DNA from: Planctomycetota bacterium
GTDB taxonomy: Bacteria; Planctomycetota; Planctomycetia; Gemmatales; Gemmataceae
Direction of reading: 5' to 3'
Assembly: GCA_016872605.1 (NCBI GenBank)
Contig: VGZI01000009.1
Span: 1-64,000, forward strand
DNA: 64,000 nt
The translations under genes and the position numbers were made by a program. Under the pieces are notes generated by a model. That model saw nothing but the letters and a program-made list of their open reading frames with translations, did no database searches and was not told the DNA's origin. Within the stretch, counting starts at the first letter, position 1. Each line of letters opens with the position of its first letter. This document shows positions 54,572 to 60,979 of this stretch, piece after piece.

Positions 54572-55711
54572 CTACAACTTGATCTCTGCCAGGGCATTCG
54601 CCAACGTGTCGATATCGTCCGTCGTGCTGAACGGTCCCGGGCTGACGCGGACGGCGCCGTCGGGGAAGGTGCCGAGGGCCCGATGGATGTAGGGAGCGCA
54701 ATGCAGGCCGGGGCGAATAGCGATGTCGAACGCCTGATCGAGGATGCCGCCGATCTCCGCGGCGGGCAAGGCTTCACTGCGAAAACTCAGCGTTCCGACG
54801 CGCCGGCTCATATCGCGATGGCCGAACACCTCGTAGCCGCCGATCTCGTCGAGTCGTTTCCAGAGGCGTTCGAGTAACTCGACTTCGTGGCGATGAATCG
54901 TCGCCAATCCCTGCTCCTGCACATATTTGATGCCGGCCGACAGGCCGGCCACGCCGAGCACATTGGGCGTGCCGCCTTCGAGGAAGTAGGGGTAGTCGCG
55001 CGGTTGCGTTTCGCTGGAGGAATCGCCGCCCGTGCCGCCTTCGCGCCAGGCGCCGACGATGGCGCCGGGACCGACATACAGGGCGCCTGTGCCGGTCGGG
55101 CCGAAGAGCGACTTGTGCCCTGGTAACGCGAGCAGGTCGATGCACATCGCTTGAATGTCGATCGGCATGACGCCGGCGGTCTGGGCGGCATCGACCAAGA
55201 AAAGAACCTCGGCTGCGCGCGCGATCTTGCCGATAGAATCGATCGGCTGCACCGTGCCCAGCACGTTGGACCCGTGTGTCATGGCGATGAGCCGGGTCTT
55301 CGGCGTGATCGCCTTCTTGATCGCAATGGGATCGACCGTTCCACCTTGGTCAGCGGCAATGCGCGTTAGCGTGATTTTGCCGGCCAGTTCCATCGCCCGC
55401 AGCGGCCGGCTGACGCTGTTGTGCTCCAGGTCGGTGGTGATGACGTGGTCGCCTTCCTTCAAGACTCCCTTGAAGGCCATGTTGAGTGCGTCGGTGCAGT
55501 TGAGCGTGAAGATGAACCGCTCCGGCCCCTCGCCGTGCAGGAACTGGTTGAGCAGATGCCGGCAGTCATCGAGCGCCCGCTCGGCGGCGAGCGCCATCTT
55601 GTGCCCGGCCCGGCCCGGATTGGCCAGGTCGTGGCGAGCGAAGTAGTCCAATGCTCGATAAACCGCCTCCGGCTTCGGAAAGCTCGTGGCGGCGTTGTCT
55701 AGGTAGATCAT
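54572..55711 (-). CDS. Cysteine desulfurase / selenocysteine-lyase-like class V aminotransferase (EF2568-type)
   Basis: MIYLDNAATSFPKPEAVYRA, DLEHNSVSRPL, VDAAQTAGVMPID, PGHKSLFGPTGTGALYV, RPGLHCAPYIHRALGT. Confidence 0.85.
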   Translation of the reverse strand: MIYLDNAATSFPKPEAVYRALDYFARHDLANPGRAGHKMALAAERALDDCRHLLNQFLHGEGPERFIFTLNCTDALNMAFKGVLKEGDHVITTDLEHNSVSRPLRAMELAGKITLTRIAADQGGTVDPIAIKKAITPKTRLIAMTHGSNVLGTVQPIDSIGKIARAAEVLFLVDAAQTAGVMPIDIQAMCIDLLALPGHKSLFGPTGTGALYVGPGAIVGAWREGGTGGDSSSETQPRDYPYFLEGGTPNVLGVAGLSAGIKYVQEQGLATIHRHEVELLERLWKRLDEIGGYEVFGHRDMSRRVGTLSFRSEALPAAEIGGILDQAFDIAIRPGLHCAPYIHRALGTFPDGAVRVSPGPFSTTDDIDTLANALAEIKL

Positions 55712-56168: not shown

Positions 56169-56795
56169 TCATTTTTCCGCTTCGGCGGGAAACAGCTTGC
56201 TCACCTCGATGTGCCCCAGCGTTTTGCCAGTGAGAATGACGGGGACCTTCGTATCCAGTCCGTAGTCGAGCCGTTTGCGATATTCGGGCGCTGCGCCGCC
56301 TTTTGGATCGGTGTAGACTTCGACGATCTTCTCCGCGACGTTCACAATCCAGTACCACGGAATGCGGCCGCCGGCGTAGATCGGCGCCCTGTCCCGGCGA
56401 TCGTCGAGCAGCGTGCTGTCGGCGACTTCGACGAGCATGTCGACGTCTTTTGCTCCTGGGTGCTGCTTCGCATATCGGCTCGCCGGCGCAAAAACTACGG
56501 CGATGTCCGGCTCGGGCTGACTGTGGGCCCCTGCGACGATTGCCATCTGTATCCGAAGGTACCACTCCGGCATGACGAGTGGGCTGAGCTCGTGCTGAGC
56601 CAAGGTCAATGATGTGTCATGCGCCGGGTTGCGAGCCATCTTGTTGACCACCTTTCCGTCGAGCAACTCAATCCGGGCGCCGGGCGCGATGATTCCCTGG
56701 GCGATCATCTTCTGGTACTGGACGACCGTGAAGCGAAAGTCCGGATCAAAGCCCTTCTTCGGCTTTCGCGGCGGCTTCTGGAGGAGGGTGGTCAT
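56169..56795 (-). CDS. Uma2-family endonuclease-like protein
   Basis: IELLDGKVVNKMARNPAHD, QPEPDIAVVFAP, DMLVEVADSTLLDDRRDRAPIYAGGRIPWYWIVN. Confidence 0.85.
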   Translation of the reverse strand: MTTLLQKPPRKPKKGFDPDFRFTVVQYQKMIAQGIIAPGARIELLDGKVVNKMARNPAHDTSLTLAQHELSPLVMPEWYLRIQMAIVAGAHSQPEPDIAVVFAPASRYAKQHPGAKDVDMLVEVADSTLLDDRRDRAPIYAGGRIPWYWIVNVAEKIVEVYTDPKGGAAPEYRKRLDYGLDTKVPVILTGKTLGHIEVSKLFPAEAEK

Positions 56796-56845: not shown

Positions 56846-57889
56846 TCAATGCCCAATGTACTTAGCATACAGCACGCGGGCTTTGTCGATGTCGTTGGTC
56901 CCCTTGATGATCGCTCGGCCATCGGGGAACACGGTGAACTCGTGGCCCTCGGCGGTGAACTTGAGCATGAAGCGGTTGAAGCTGACCTCGCCGCCCATTT
57001 GCTTCAGATGGCTGGCCATTTCCTCGAAGTTGAGCTTGGCGGCACAGCGATGGGATATCTGCACGGCGTTGCGGCCACAAAGGCTAGTGGTTTGCGAGCC
57101 CATTTCGCCTTCAAGCCATTCGAACTTCTTGCGCTGGCAGCAGGGACAATCGACCTTGCCCAGGAGCGGCGCGATCTTGATGCGGCGGGTGATGTTCTCC
57201 CACACGTCGATGTAGACTAACTCGCGGTTGATCGTCTCGGGCTGGCCGGTCAAGAGCTTCAAGCACTCGGCGACTTGAAAGCTGGCGATGATGCTGACGA
57301 TCGGCGCTAGCACGCCGGCGGTTTCGCAGGTGCCTGCCTCGCCCGGGGCCGGCGCCGCCTCGAAGACGCAGCGCAGGCACGGAGTTTGGCCGGGGATGAT
57401 CGTCATCGTCTGCCCGTGTCCGCCGATCGAGCCCCCGTAAACCCACGGCTTGCCGAGCTTGACCGAGACATCGTTGATGAGATAGCGAATCTCGAAGTTG
57501 TCGGTCCCGTCAAGAATGACGTCAGCGTCTTTCGAGAGTTCCAGGATGTTTGTGCGATCGATGTCGGTGACGACCGGCTCGACGGTGACGCTCGAATTGA
57601 CGACGCGGAGCTTGCGTGCCGCCGCCTCGGCCTTGGGGAGGTTTGCAGCGATGTCGGCTTCATCGAACAGGACCTGGCGCTGCAGATTGTGCGATTCGAT
57701 GAAATCGCGATCGACAATGCGCACGAAGCCGATGCCGGCGCGGACCAGGGCGTTGGCCATCACCGTGCCAAGGGCGCCGCATCCGCACAGGGTCACGCGG
57801 CTGGCGAGCAGCTTGCGCTGGCCTTTTTCCATAATGCCGCCGAATCGCATTTGACGGCTATAACGTTCGAGAGTGGGATCTTGGCTCAT
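56846..57889 (-). CDS. MoeB/ThiF-family adenylyltransferase
   Basis: RYSRQMRFGGIMEKGQRKLLASRVTLCGCGALGTVMANALVRAGIGFVRIVDRD, DVILDGTDNFEIRYLINDVS, PCLRCVFEAAP, CPCCQRKK. Confidence 0.92.
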   Translation of the reverse strand: MSQDPTLERYSRQMRFGGIMEKGQRKLLASRVTLCGCGALGTVMANALVRAGIGFVRIVDRDFIESHNLQRQVLFDEADIAANLPKAEAAARKLRVVNSSVTVEPVVTDIDRTNILELSKDADVILDGTDNFEIRYLINDVSVKLGKPWVYGGSIGGHGQTMTIIPGQTPCLRCVFEAAPAPGEAGTCETAGVLAPIVSIIASFQVAECLKLLTGQPETINRELVYIDVWENITRRIKIAPLLGKVDCPCCQRKKFEWLEGEMGSQTTSLCGRNAVQISHRCAAKLNFEEMASHLKQMGGEVSFNRFMLKFTAEGHEFTVFPDGRAIIKGTNDIDKARVLYAKYIGH

Positions 57890-57925: not shown

Positions 57926-58708
57926 TCAAACGGTGTCCGCGGGCACCAGCCGGCGCGGAATATGGGCGGTAAACGTCCGTGTGTTGCCTGGCCAGCGAAA
58001 TGGCGCCAGCAGTTTTCGCGGATTGGCGAGTTCCCAGTGCCAGGCATATTCTCTTAGCGTGTACTTGTGCCTTTGCAGGTGTGGCGGCAGATCTCTCCAC
58101 CGGCAGATCCGGACCACGTCAGCGATCCCAATCACGGCGCCTCCGCCACGATTGGCTTCTTCGTTCCATCCTTGGGCGTAATATCGGCGCTGCTCGTCGT
58201 TCAGGCCTAACCAAATGCTCATGCTGGAACTGACGTGGATTCCAAGGGGTACTTTTTTCCCGGCGTTGAGAAGGTCCTGTGCGCGAGTCCAGGCCCAGTT
58301 ACGATTCTCAATTTGCTTCTTGCCATCGAGTATGAAGTCGGCCCAGGGTTGTTGGATCGACAGACACGTCAGTTCCAATGGTTCCGCGGAAAGCCGATAC
58401 GCATAGGGATCAAGTCGCTCCAGCACAACGCAATCACCTGGCGCCAGATGGTTGTCGGCGAAGAATCGGCGGACCCAGCCGCGTTTCCTGAATATCTTCT
58501 TGTTGCCCACAACATCAGTGTTCACTTGTCCGATGCCGAAATCAATTTGCACGGTCTTGGGCGCCGCTGCGGCCTTGTTCCGGCCACCCACCACATCGGA
58601 CGGAAAAAAATCCATGCACTCAGCAAGGTAAATGTGGCCGTGGTCAAGGTTCGCCTGCTTGATCGTTATGAAACGACGGAGTGCAGCCATGGTTGCGCCT
58701 TTGGCCAT
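57926..58708 (-). CDS. ASCH (PUA-like) domain protein with an N-terminal EcoRII-N/B3-like DNA-binding-type domain
   Basis: ASCH: LELTCLSIQQPWADFILDGKKQIENRNW; N-terminal RFITIKQANLDHGHIYLAECMDFFPSDVVGG...RKRGWVRRFFADNHLAPGDCVVLERLDPYAYRL. ATG overlaps the upstream TAA (TAATG). Confidence 0.7.
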   Translation of the reverse strand: MAKGATMAALRRFITIKQANLDHGHIYLAECMDFFPSDVVGGRNKAAAAPKTVQIDFGIGQVNTDVVGNKKIFRKRGWVRRFFADNHLAPGDCVVLERLDPYAYRLSAEPLELTCLSIQQPWADFILDGKKQIENRNWAWTRAQDLLNAGKKVPLGIHVSSSMSIWLGLNDEQRRYYAQGWNEEANRGGGAVIGIADVVRICRWRDLPPHLQRHKYTLREYAWHWELANPRKLLAPFRWPGNTRTFTAHIPRRLVPADTV

Positions 58709-59094
58709 TAGGCCCCCGTGCTCACGCCGAATTCCTTGAGAAAGTCCTGCAGGAACTGCATTTCTTCCTTCGGCCAGCCTTCTTGCTTGGCGAATGCCAA
58801 GAGAGCATCCATGTCTTCACGAATGCGCTTGAGGTCGGAGCCATGCAGACGCTGCAAGTACGTGGCCATGTAATTGAGCGCTTCGCTGGCGGCAGGATCG
58901 TTGACCACTTCGGCGTCGGAGCCGTCGAAGAACACGACCGCATGCAGTGTCGCAAGCAGAAGCGGATGGATACCGAGTTCTTCCGGGATGAGCGGAAAGA
59001 CGGCGGCGCCATCGGGGACATCGCCGCATGATCCCGCAGGTTCGCTGCGCTCACCTGCGGGATTCGGGGTGAGAGGGTTGCGCTGATCCGCCAT
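58708..59094 (-). CDS. Hypothetical 128-aa protein in the ThiS/MoeB gene run
   Basis: Tightly packed between the ThiS-like and ASCH genes; DPAASEALNYMATYLQRLHGSDLKRIREDMDALLAFAKQEGWPKEEMQFLQDFLKEFGV. Confidence 0.6.
   Translation of the reverse strand: MADQRNPLTPNPAGERSEPAGSCGDVPDGAAVFPLIPEELGIHPLLLATLHAVVFFDGSDAEVVNDPAASEALNYMATYLQRLHGSDLKRIREDMDALLAFAKQEGWPKEEMQFLQDFLKEFGVSTGA
59032..59062. repeat. Palindrome tcccgcaggt-tcgctgcgctc-acctgcggga inside a coding sequence (encodes NPAGERSEPAGS)
   Basis: 10-bp perfect arms. Confidence 0.75.
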
Positions 59095-59095
59095 G

Positions 59096-59368
59096 TCAGC
59101 CTCCAGCCACGGCGGGAATGATGCTCAACACATCGCCGTCCTTGGTCGCGCTCTCGAGGTGGTTGAGATAGCGGATGTCTTCGTCGTTGAGATAAATGTT
59201 GACGAACCGGCGCACCTGGCCGTTGTCGAAGATGCGGCCGACGATGTTTGGGAATTTTTGCCCCAGTGCATCGAGCACTTCTTTCACGTTCGCGCCGGCG
59301 AGGTCGACGGATGCTTGCCCGTCGGCGTGTTGCCGCATCGCTTGGGGTATGTGGACTTTGATTGGCAT
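59096..59368 (-). CDS. ThiS/MoaD-family sulfur carrier protein
   Basis: MPIKVHIPQAMRQHADGQASVDLAGANVKEVLDALGQKFPNI... ending DGDVLSIIPAVAGG with a C-terminal diglycine. Confidence 0.9.
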   Translation of the reverse strand: MPIKVHIPQAMRQHADGQASVDLAGANVKEVLDALGQKFPNIVGRIFDNGQVRRFVNIYLNDEDIRYLNHLESATKDGDVLSIIPAVAGG

Positions 59369-59473: not shown

Positions 59474-60730
59474 TTACACCAGCACCGGCTCGGGCTGGCC
59501 TTCCAACACCGCCGCGAAATCGTCGATGTTGGGACGAATGATGATCGGCTTCTCGACCGCGTTGGCGACGGCGTCCTGCGTCTTCAGGCCGTTGCCCGTG
59601 ATGCAGATGACGATTTCTTCGTCGCGTGGGATGCGGCCCTGGTCGATGAGCTTCTTCGTGACAGCCAGCGTGACGCCGCCGGCGGTCTCGGCGAAAATGC
59701 CTTCGGTCTGGGCCAACAGCAGCATGGCGTCGGTGATCTCCGGATCGCTGACGTCCTCGCCGAAGCCGCCCGTTTCGCGCATGACCTTGATCGCGAAGTA
59801 GCCGTCGGCCGGGTCGCCGATGGCCAGCGATTTCGCAATCGTGTTCGGCTTACGGACGGGGCGATGCGAATCCTGTCCCGCCTTGAGTCCGCTGGTGATC
59901 GGATTACAGCCCGTGGCCTGAGCGCCGTAGATCTTGGTCCTGGGCTCGCGATCGAGCAGGCCGACCTTGTACATCTCGTGGAACGCCTTGTGAATCTTGC
60001 CGATCAAGCTACCGCCCGCCATTGGGCTGACAACATGTTGCGGCGTGCGCCAGCCGAGCTGTTCGGCGATCTCGTAGCCGAACGTCTTCGAGCCTTCTGC
60101 GTAGAACGGACGAAGGTTGACATTGACGAGACCCCAATTGTAGCGGTCGGCAACCTGGCTGCACAGGCGATTGACGTCGTCGTACGTGCCTTTGATACCG
60201 ATCAGCTTGGCGCCGTAGACCGTGGTGCCGATGATCTTGGCGGTTTCCAAGTCTTGCGGCACGAAGACGTAGGTGTTCAGCCCGGCCTGGGCGGCGTTGG
60301 CGGCGACGCTGTTGGCGAGGTTGCCCGTCGACGCACAGCCGACGGTAGTAAAACCGAATTCGCGGGCCTTGGATAACGCAACCGAGACAACGCGATCCTT
60401 GAACGACAGCGTCGGAAAATTGACTGCGTCGTTCTTGATCCACAACGTCTCGACGCCGAGTGCCTCGGCCAACCGGTGAGCGCGAACAAGGGGCGTGCCG
60501 CCAACGAGCGGACCGACGGTCGGTTCGCCGTCGATGGGCAAGAGTTCGCGATAGCGCCACATGTTGAAGGGGCGCATCTCGATCTTGCCGCGATTGATCA
60601 CTTCGCGGATGGCGTCGTAATCGTAGTCGACTTCGAGCGGGCCGAAATCGTCTTCGCAGTAATTGAGAGGTTGTTTGGGATAGGCCTTGCCACACATGCG
60701 ACACTTGAGGCCACGGACGAAATCGCTCAT
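59474..60730 (-). CDS. thrC: Threonine synthase (PLP fold; N-terminal CXXC)
   Basis: MSDFVRGLKCRMCGKAYP, VGGTPLVRAHRL, FPTLSFKDRVVSVALSKAREFG, ASTGNLANSVAA, VSPMAGGSL, AETAGGVTLAV. Confidence 0.9.
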   Translation of the reverse strand: MSDFVRGLKCRMCGKAYPKQPLNYCEDDFGPLEVDYDYDAIREVINRGKIEMRPFNMWRYRELLPIDGEPTVGPLVGGTPLVRAHRLAEALGVETLWIKNDAVNFPTLSFKDRVVSVALSKAREFGFTTVGCASTGNLANSVAANAAQAGLNTYVFVPQDLETAKIIGTTVYGAKLIGIKGTYDDVNRLCSQVADRYNWGLVNVNLRPFYAEGSKTFGYEIAEQLGWRTPQHVVSPMAGGSLIGKIHKAFHEMYKVGLLDREPRTKIYGAQATGCNPITSGLKAGQDSHRPVRKPNTIAKSLAIGDPADGYFAIKVMRETGGFGEDVSDPEITDAMLLLAQTEGIFAETAGGVTLAVTKKLIDQGRIPRDEEIVICITGNGLKTQDAVANAVEKPIIIRPNIDDFAAVLEGQPEPVLV

Positions 60731-60746
60731 AATCTCTCCGCCTACG

Positions 60747-60799
60747 TAGGGTGCGCGAAACGCACCGCTCCGGAGAAGGTGCGTTTCACGCACCCTACG
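60747..60799. repeat. Palindrome GTAGGGTGCGCGAAACGCACC / GGTGCGTTTCACGCACCCTAC in the thrC leader
   Basis: 21-bp arms, one mismatch, 11-nt loop. Confidence 0.88.
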
Positions 60800-60871
60800 C
60801 CAAAGCGGCGACACATATTGCAACCGGCGGGTATCTTTAGGGTTGGTAGAGAAAAATGCGTGCGGGGCACC

Positions 60872-60979
60872 ATCTTATCTCTCCCGGACAAACCGGGGGG
60901 AGTTAGCACCAGCATCGCAGGGGTGCGACCGGTTGCTGTGGCTTCAAAGGGCCCTTCCCTCAGCCACTCTCGATAAGAT
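60872..60979 (-). promoter_or_regulatory. SAM-I (S-box) riboswitch
   Basis: Minus strand: ATCTTATCGAGAGTGGCTGAGGGAAGGGCCCTTTGAAGCCACAGCAACCGGTCGCACCCCTGCGATGCTGGTGCTAACTCCCCCCGGTTTGTCCGGGAGAGATAAGAT. Has S-box conserved blocks CTTATCxAGAGxGG..GAGGGAxxGGCCC..TGAAxCC..CAGCAACC and a perfect 8-bp P1. Confidence 0.93.

Follow-up and report, generated by a model that had tools for sequence, protein, structure and literature searches.

Introduction

Among the described systems that come closest to the locus considered here, CysM takes sulfur from the carrier protein CysO. For Wolinella succinogenes, a protein thiocarboxylate-dependent methionine biosynthesis was reported (Krishnamoorthy and Begley 2011, as cited in PMC5764234), and operons with ThiS/MoaD, E1, JAB and cysteine synthase genes were described by Iyer et al. 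2006 (PMC1779556). Price et al. 2018 pointed out that at least one homocysteine pathway is still missing where the traditional, DUF39 and thiocarboxylate routes are absent (PMC5764234). With respect to regulation, a 2025 survey restricted to tandem riboswitches listed thrC with T-boxes and hom1 with SAM riboswitches (PMC12452182).

The locus described here lies in the window, which is the whole stretch of DNA that was analysed (64,000 nucleotides of the Planctomycetota assembly GCA_016872605.1). Its minus strand carries a SAM-I (S-box) aptamer, followed by a gene of a threonine-synthase-like family that we call ThrCx and by genes for a sulfur carrier, an E1-like enzyme and a cysteine desulfurase. 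In the Wolinella route, a carrier and an E1-like enzyme likewise stand next to a PLP enzyme of homocysteine synthesis (predicted in our case). There, however, the PLP enzyme is reportedly the fold-type-I protein MetY, which uses O-acetylhomoserine and is accompanied by a JAB hydrolase, and ThrCx belongs to the ThrC family (fold type II). Also unlike that route, the ThrCx operon has a desulfurase and no JAB gene, and the window's family is without MetX and MetA. With the operons of Iyer et al. it shares the link between a sulfur carrier and sulfur amino acid genes, but the passages on these operons name cysteine synthase and O-acetylhomoserine sulfhydrylase and no ThrC homologue (PMC1779556). 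The M. tuberculosis CysM/CysO pair (3dwg) also combines a fold-type-II PLP enzyme with a CysO-like Gly-Gly carrier, and its substrate is a phosphorylated amino acid, as predicted for ThrCx; the differences are the ThrC family, the absence of Mec+ (JAB) or ClpS genes, the SAM-I control and homocysteine as the predicted product. The ThrCx system would work like the CysO/CysM and HcyS/MetY systems (the Wolinella genes are reportedly named HcyS, HcyD, HcyF and MetY) and is a member of neither. Compared with SAM-I riboswitches elsewhere, the controlled genes here are a ThrC-like gene and a sulfur carrier operon. In the open-access literature we found no description of a ThrC homologue with a sulfur carrier, which may have been reported in a subscription journal, and none of a SAM-I riboswitch upstream of thrC.

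A SAM-I aptamer and the operon behind it

When the whole window was scanned with cmscan, a single Rfam 15 match was obtained. It was RF00162, on the minus strand from 60979 to 60872, which scored 80.6 bits (gathering threshold 44.4; E 2.2e-17) over its full length (1-108 of 108). An earlier note, made from the letters of this DNA alone, had placed an S-box aptamer at the same coordinates, with a perfect 8-bp P1, and had named Infernal with RF00162 as the check; the significant match bears it out, and all 8 of 8 P1 pairs are present, between ATCTTATC (60979-60972) and GATAAGAT (60879-60872). The rest of the 6.7-Mb assembly contains no RF00162 match, and the copy in the window is the only one. 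Judged by its sequence, the aptamer is a regular member of the known SAM-I family, for which SAM binding and repression are predicted. The aptamer and the genes that follow on the same strand are listed below.

60872..60979, minus strand: SAM-I (S-box) aptamer, RF00162, found with cmscan; P1 5' strand 60979-60972, 3' strand 60879-60872
59474..60730, minus strand: ThrCx, threonine-synthase-like PLP enzyme, 418 aa (TIGR00260 284 bits, PF00291; PLP lysine K111)
59096..59368, minus strand: ThiS/MoaD-type sulfur carrier, 90 aa, C-terminus IPAVAGG (PF02597 57 bits)
58708..59094, minus strand: ORF128, helical protein, 128 aa; related proteins occur in roughly half of the operons inspected
57926..58708, minus strand: weakly ASCH-like protein, 260 aa (PF04266 18.9 bits, below cut-off)
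56846..57889, minus strand: ThiF/MoeB-type (E1-like) adenylyltransferase with a C-terminal extension (PF00899 244 bits, NF009123 371 bits)
56169..56795, minus strand: Uma2-family protein (PF05685), also present in several relatives' operons
54572..55711, minus strand: cysteine desulfurase family protein (TIGR01977 410 bits, cut-off 377)

ThrCx is predicted to be an O-phosphohomoserine-dependent homocysteine synthase, with a sulfur carrier that would be activated by the E1-like enzyme and supplied by the desulfurase as the putative sulfur donor. The best solved relatives of the carrier are 4n6e_B (a ThiS/MoaD family protein) and 3dwg_C (M. tuberculosis CysO). Since the Gly-Gly end of the carrier is free, a JAB-type hydrolase (Mec+/HcyD) would be needless, and none was found among the operon genes of the window; moa and thi genes were likewise absent from the operon genes scanned. 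ORF128, which lies between the carrier and E1 genes in most operons of the window's family, has no Pfam or NCBIfam match (its alignment, A3, holds 16 sequences), and its confident, helical model (pLDDT 84) has no fold match among the solved PDB structures. The ASCH-like gene, without a tblastn match in relatives' operons, is probably a local insertion, and the Uma2 gene is probably a mobile passenger. Uma2 genes occur at varying operon positions in L052, L065, L068, L077, L082, L084, L161 and L166, as though they had landed in this operon repeatedly.

The leader between aptamer and start codon

The ATG of ThrCx at 60730 lies 141 nt past the aptamer, and the leader in between contains three features.

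60848..60870, minus strand: candidate expression platform, putatively a short hairpin (60870-60860, GUGC-CCC-GCAC) and, after it, a U-rich tract (60856-60848)
60746..60798, no strand assigned: palindromic repeat with 21-nt arms and one mismatch, between the aptamer with its downstream hairpin and the start codon
60734..60739, minus strand: Shine-Dalgarno-like GGAGAG, 3 nt before the ATG at 60730, read from the sequence

The U-rich tract, 14-24 nt downstream of the 3' side of P1, can alternatively pair with that side in an antiterminator-like manner, and this pairing breaks P1. The two structures are mutually exclusive, and when P1 is formed the short hairpin before the U-tract is free. In the predicted minimum-energy fold of the ligand-free leader the alternative pairing was present and P1 was absent. 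The hairpin alone is weak (4 bp, -3.9 kcal/mol) and was below the criteria of the terminator scan. An antiterminator test on 27 related leaders, in some of which the aptamer 3' ends were imprecise (L073, L074 and L075), gave a mixed result, with z < -1.645 in 9 and a mean z of -0.79. The predicted folding of the leader suggests attenuation, which the short hairpin and the mixed result make less certain. A promoter scan upstream of the aptamer on the minus strand yielded no sigma-70-like site.

The palindromic repeat has a second copy in the same genome (L119 677-744), whose 21-nt arms are nearly identical but whose loop differs. The two congeneric loci L052 and L053 lack the repeat at the corresponding position. 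It is a dispersed element that landed between the riboswitch and the start codon, outside the conserved switch.

Riboswitch and ThrCx co-occur across the class

We determined how often the riboswitch and ThrCx occur together in a sample of 149 genomes of the class, with orthologues of ThrCx defined by an E below 1e-80. ThrCx was present in 74 of these, and RF00162 was found in all 74 as compared to 2 of the 75 others (Fisher p 6e-41, for genomes that are related and not independent). Both were universal among the 33 genomes sampled from the window's family. Out of 78 riboswitches, 72 lie on the same strand and 98-940 nt (median 200) upstream of ThrCx; this recurrence of the switch directly before the orthologous gene in relatives, together with the score, rules out a chance RNA match. 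ThrCx is contained in 36 of the 40 riboswitch regions that were opened, and in these 36 it is always followed by the carrier and E1 genes and in 30 by a desulfurase gene, the exceptions including three loci of family f2 (L046, L048 and L051). The conserved order is riboswitch, ThrCx, carrier, in part of the operons ORF128, then E1 and mostly desulfurase, while ORF128, Uma2 and ASCH-like genes vary between operons. A Gly-Gly C-terminus was observed for 35 of the 36 carriers encoded in these operons; the carrier of L047 has GGSR instead.

SAM-I aptamers without ThrCx behind them were observed at L071 and L072 (both in genome G049), L076 (G105) and L049 (G146), and riboswitches not paired with ThrCx also in G142 and G132. 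No recognisable sulfur gene stands behind either aptamer of G049, and the riboswitch locus of G142 is split over contig ends.

ThrCx compared with threonine synthase

The earlier note had called the next gene thrC. This held in so far as ThrCx passes the thrC cut-off of TIGR00260 (284 against 167 bits), but the gene is not an ordinary thrC and belongs to a look-alike family, with a score below the cut-off of PRK08197 (293 against 303). The genome encodes two further ThrC homologues, C119 (TIGR00260 228 bits) and C129 (PRK08197 561 bits), and one of them is of the kind that is found across the class, also in genomes without ThrCx. At least one TIGR00260 match was obtained in 148 of the 149 class genomes, and at least two in each of the 74 ThrCx genomes except G120, G128 and G132; the two matches counted for G118 may be pieces of a broken ThrCx. 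In that genome (L054 10194-11258) the ThrCx frame is split into two overlapping pieces, by an assembly error or by decay.

We then compared residues between 116 ThrCx sequences from many phyla and eight other ThrC proteins, using Thermus numbering. The PLP lysine is kept (K111, Thermus K61). In 116 of 116 ThrCx sequences T88 is replaced by leucine (L138), N157 by arginine (R207), R160 by tyrosine (Y210), G64-M65 by V114-V115 and A194 by lysine (K245). Thermus N188 is a glycine or serine in ThrCx, the E-P-A-S-A of ThrC has become E-T-A-G-G, and there are two one-residue insertions relative to other ThrC. T88, R160 and N188, conserved in ThrC and lost here, are the residues that we take to contact the substrate phosphate in ThrC, from work on 1v7c, and their alteration makes O-phosphohomoserine less certain as the substrate of ThrCx. 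In a tree of 41 sequences all 33 ThrCx form one clade (support 100/99), whose placement among ThrC is blurred by long branches. The AlphaFold model of ThrCx (pLDDT 84) is nearest to threonine synthases, and ThrCx shares the fold and the PLP lysine with the canonical enzymes 2zsj, 1v7c, 2d1f, 6cgq and 1e5x, at roughly 25-37% identity in structural alignment. ThrCx has a remodelled pocket in a fold that is kept.

Methionine and cysteine genes

MetX matches of over 300 bits were regarded as convincing. The window's family, sampled with 33 genomes, gave no such match and reached at most 25 bits, and MetA was absent from all 149 class genomes. Strong MetX was present in 11 of the 74 ThrCx genomes as compared to 39 of the 75 others (Fisher p 2e-6, again for related genomes). 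The absence of MetX alone is not diagnostic, because 36 of the 75 genomes without ThrCx also lack a strong MetX, which implies that other homocysteine routes exist; from these 36 of the 149 genomes (families f5, f6, f11 and others), ThrCx, strong MetX and MetA are all missing.

The window's genome does encode MetH, and a CBS gene that adjoins a CGL/CGS-like gene (cystathionine gamma-synthase/lyase family), so that homocysteine could be methylated and probably also converted to cysteine. The CGL/CGS-like gene is one of two Cys/Met-metabolism PLP genes (Cys_Met_Meta_PP) in this genome, the second being C69, and a clear homologue of the TIGR00191 type of homoserine kinase was not found in the genome (best match 27.5 bits). 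As far as the gene content tells, this genome is without a standard way of making homocysteine.

ThrCx in other lineages

A scan of a genome collection returned at least 550 relatives of ThrCx, the best 80 of which were examined. These 80 include loci from Planctomycetota, Zetaproteobacteria (Mariprofundus), Nitrospinota, Nitrospirota, Dadabacteria, Desulfobacterota, Myxococcota, Omnitrophota, Verrucomicrobiota, Armatimonadota, KSB1, Methylomirabilota, Margulisbacteria and one Actinomycetota. In most of the best 80 the carrier gene stands directly behind ThrCx, and the two stay adjacent while E1 and desulfurase vary between lineages; the ThrCx-carrier pair recurs in about a dozen other lineages, often together with SAM-I and genes of sulfur assimilation. 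A SAM-I riboswitch was found upstream of ThrCx in 13 of the 26 loci scanned with Rfam. Among the neighbours at six loci are cysK, cysM and genes for a MoeB-like E1, an IscR-like regulator and a DASS anion transporter; in Omnitrophota and Mariprofundus, sulfite-reductase-like genes adjoin ThrCx. Such neighbours place ThrCx in sulfur assimilation independently of the window. In Verrucomicrobia, two tandem carrier genes were observed behind ThrCx (L210 5605-6217 and L232 8030-8596).

The proposed pathway

To explain the thrC-like gene behind the aptamer, the earlier note had offered SAM control of the threonine branch point or, as its second alternative, a ThrC-fold enzyme that works in sulfur amino acid synthesis. 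The second was favoured by our analysis: it is well supported by the carrier, E1 and desulfurase genes behind ThrCx, by the exact co-occurrence of ThrCx and the riboswitch, by a family without MetX and MetA, and by the sulfur-assimilation neighbours in other phyla. The earlier note makes no mention of the sulfur carrier operon downstream. We consider it likely, with a probability of about 0.72, that the S-box controls a homocysteine-synthesis operon in which O-phosphohomoserine and the carrier thiocarboxylate give homocysteine, and which is switched off with SAM.

The pathway that we infer, with regard to substrate, product, use of a thiocarboxylate and direction and mechanism of the switch, would run as follows. 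The cysteine desulfurase would provide sulfane sulfur, the ThiF/MoeB-like enzyme would adenylate the C-terminal Gly-Gly of the carrier, and a thiocarboxylate would form. On its PLP, ThrCx would eliminate the phosphate from O-phosphohomoserine and add the carrier sulfur at C-gamma to give homocysteine, which MetH would turn into methionine, while CBS/CGL could pass the homocysteine sulfur on to cysteine. With SAM plentiful, P1 would form, the downstream hairpin and U-rich tract would be freed and expression would be lowered; with SAM scarce, the 3' side of P1 would pair with the U-rich tract and the operon would be read.

ThrC eliminates the phosphate from O-phosphohomoserine to a vinylglycine-type intermediate, to which water adds at C-beta, and in gamma-synthases the addition is at C-gamma. 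The chemistry proposed for ThrCx is plausible because the elimination is already that of ThrC, with sulfur at C-gamma instead of water at C-beta. Precedents are CysM with its sulfur from CysO, and cysteate synthase, a ThrC-like enzyme that uses a sulfur nucleophile. To our knowledge, no fold-type-II PLP enzyme has been shown to carry out a gamma-replacement, which counts against this reading. Since the desulfurase draws on cysteine, net sulfur entry would need a further step.

Alternative explanations

It is unlikely that ThrCx and the carrier make cysteine from O-phosphoserine, like CysM and CysO, with homocysteine then formed from cysteine and O-phosphohomoserine by a plant-like cystathionine gamma-synthase and a beta-lyase. 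Such a scheme would suit the closest PDB relatives of the carrier (4n6e and M. tuberculosis CysO) and the two Cys_Met_Meta_PP genes, which would allow a plant-like cystathionine route from O-phosphohomoserine, and it has a parallel in cysteate synthase, a relative of ThrC that has taken up phosphoserine chemistry. As a source of cysteine, however, ThrCx would be redundant beside cysK and cysM in other phyla, which disfavours this product; moreover, the CBS gene adjoining the CGL/CGS-like gene in this genome speaks for the opposite conversion, of homocysteine to cysteine, and SAM control suits methionine better. Improbable as well is a close variant of the favoured pathway, in which free sulfide reacts with O-phosphohomoserine on ThrCx to give homocysteine and the carrier only stores or delivers sulfur when sulfide is low. 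The sulfite-reductase-like genes in Omnitrophota and Mariprofundus and the f2 loci without an operon desulfurase are consistent with it, but the carrier gene is the most constant partner of ThrCx.

That ThrCx is a true threonine synthase, with SAM regulating the Thr/Met branch point, we regard as very unlikely, even though it exceeds the TIGR00260 equivalog cut-off, keeps the PLP lysine and has threonine synthases as its nearest solved structures, and even though plant threonine synthase responds to SAM. Two further ThrC homologues are encoded here, nearly every ThrCx genome has at least one besides ThrCx, the conserved ThrC residues are replaced in 116 of 116 sequences, and the pairing with sulfur carrier genes is fixed in many phyla. 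The paralogues and lost residues disfavour the first explanation of the earlier note, and an orphan thrC under SAM control was rejected as the main reading through paralogues and neighbours. Least credible of all is a functionally unlinked ThrCx beside genes for a different sulfur transfer, with carrier, E1 and desulfurase acting in tRNA thiolation or in molybdopterin or thiamine synthesis. The carrier and E1 families are common to those pathways, which speaks for this reading. Against it, ThrCx and carrier are adjacent in most loci examined over many phyla while E1 and desulfurase vary, no moa or thi gene is among the operon genes scanned, and the control is by SAM-I.

Implications of the proposed ThrC-derived homocysteine route

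Returning to homocysteine synthesis by ThrCx, we lean towards the broader view that a ThrC-derived, fold-type-II gamma-replacement route, which the literature searched does not describe, is spread over at least a dozen bacterial lineages. In several phyla it would be controlled by SAM-I, and its enzyme is annotated as threonine synthase. The ThrCx family is a concrete candidate for the missing homocysteine pathway of Price et al. 2018 (PMC5764234), and the riboswitch is the physiological clue to its function. If this is true, genes that NCBI's thrC model names threonine synthase would make homocysteine in many phyla (Planctomycetota, Zetaproteobacteria, Nitrospinota, Nitrospirota, Desulfobacterota, Verrucomicrobiota, Omnitrophota and others), what is predicted for these genomes on threonine synthesis and on gaps in methionine synthesis would be systematically wrong, and a ThrC scaffold would carry out a reaction otherwise known from fold-type-I enzymes. 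The route may also lie behind part of the methionine steps reported as missing by annotation tools.

Two literature reports touch on this subject. Oleidesulfovibrio alaskensis G20 has a single SAM riboswitch, which precedes a hypothetical protein (PMC11124144), and Akkermansia muciniphila requires threonine and can be grown in a medium whose named amino acid supplement is threonine (PMC5902328). This need for threonine would fit if ThrCx were the only ThrC-like gene of Akkermansia.
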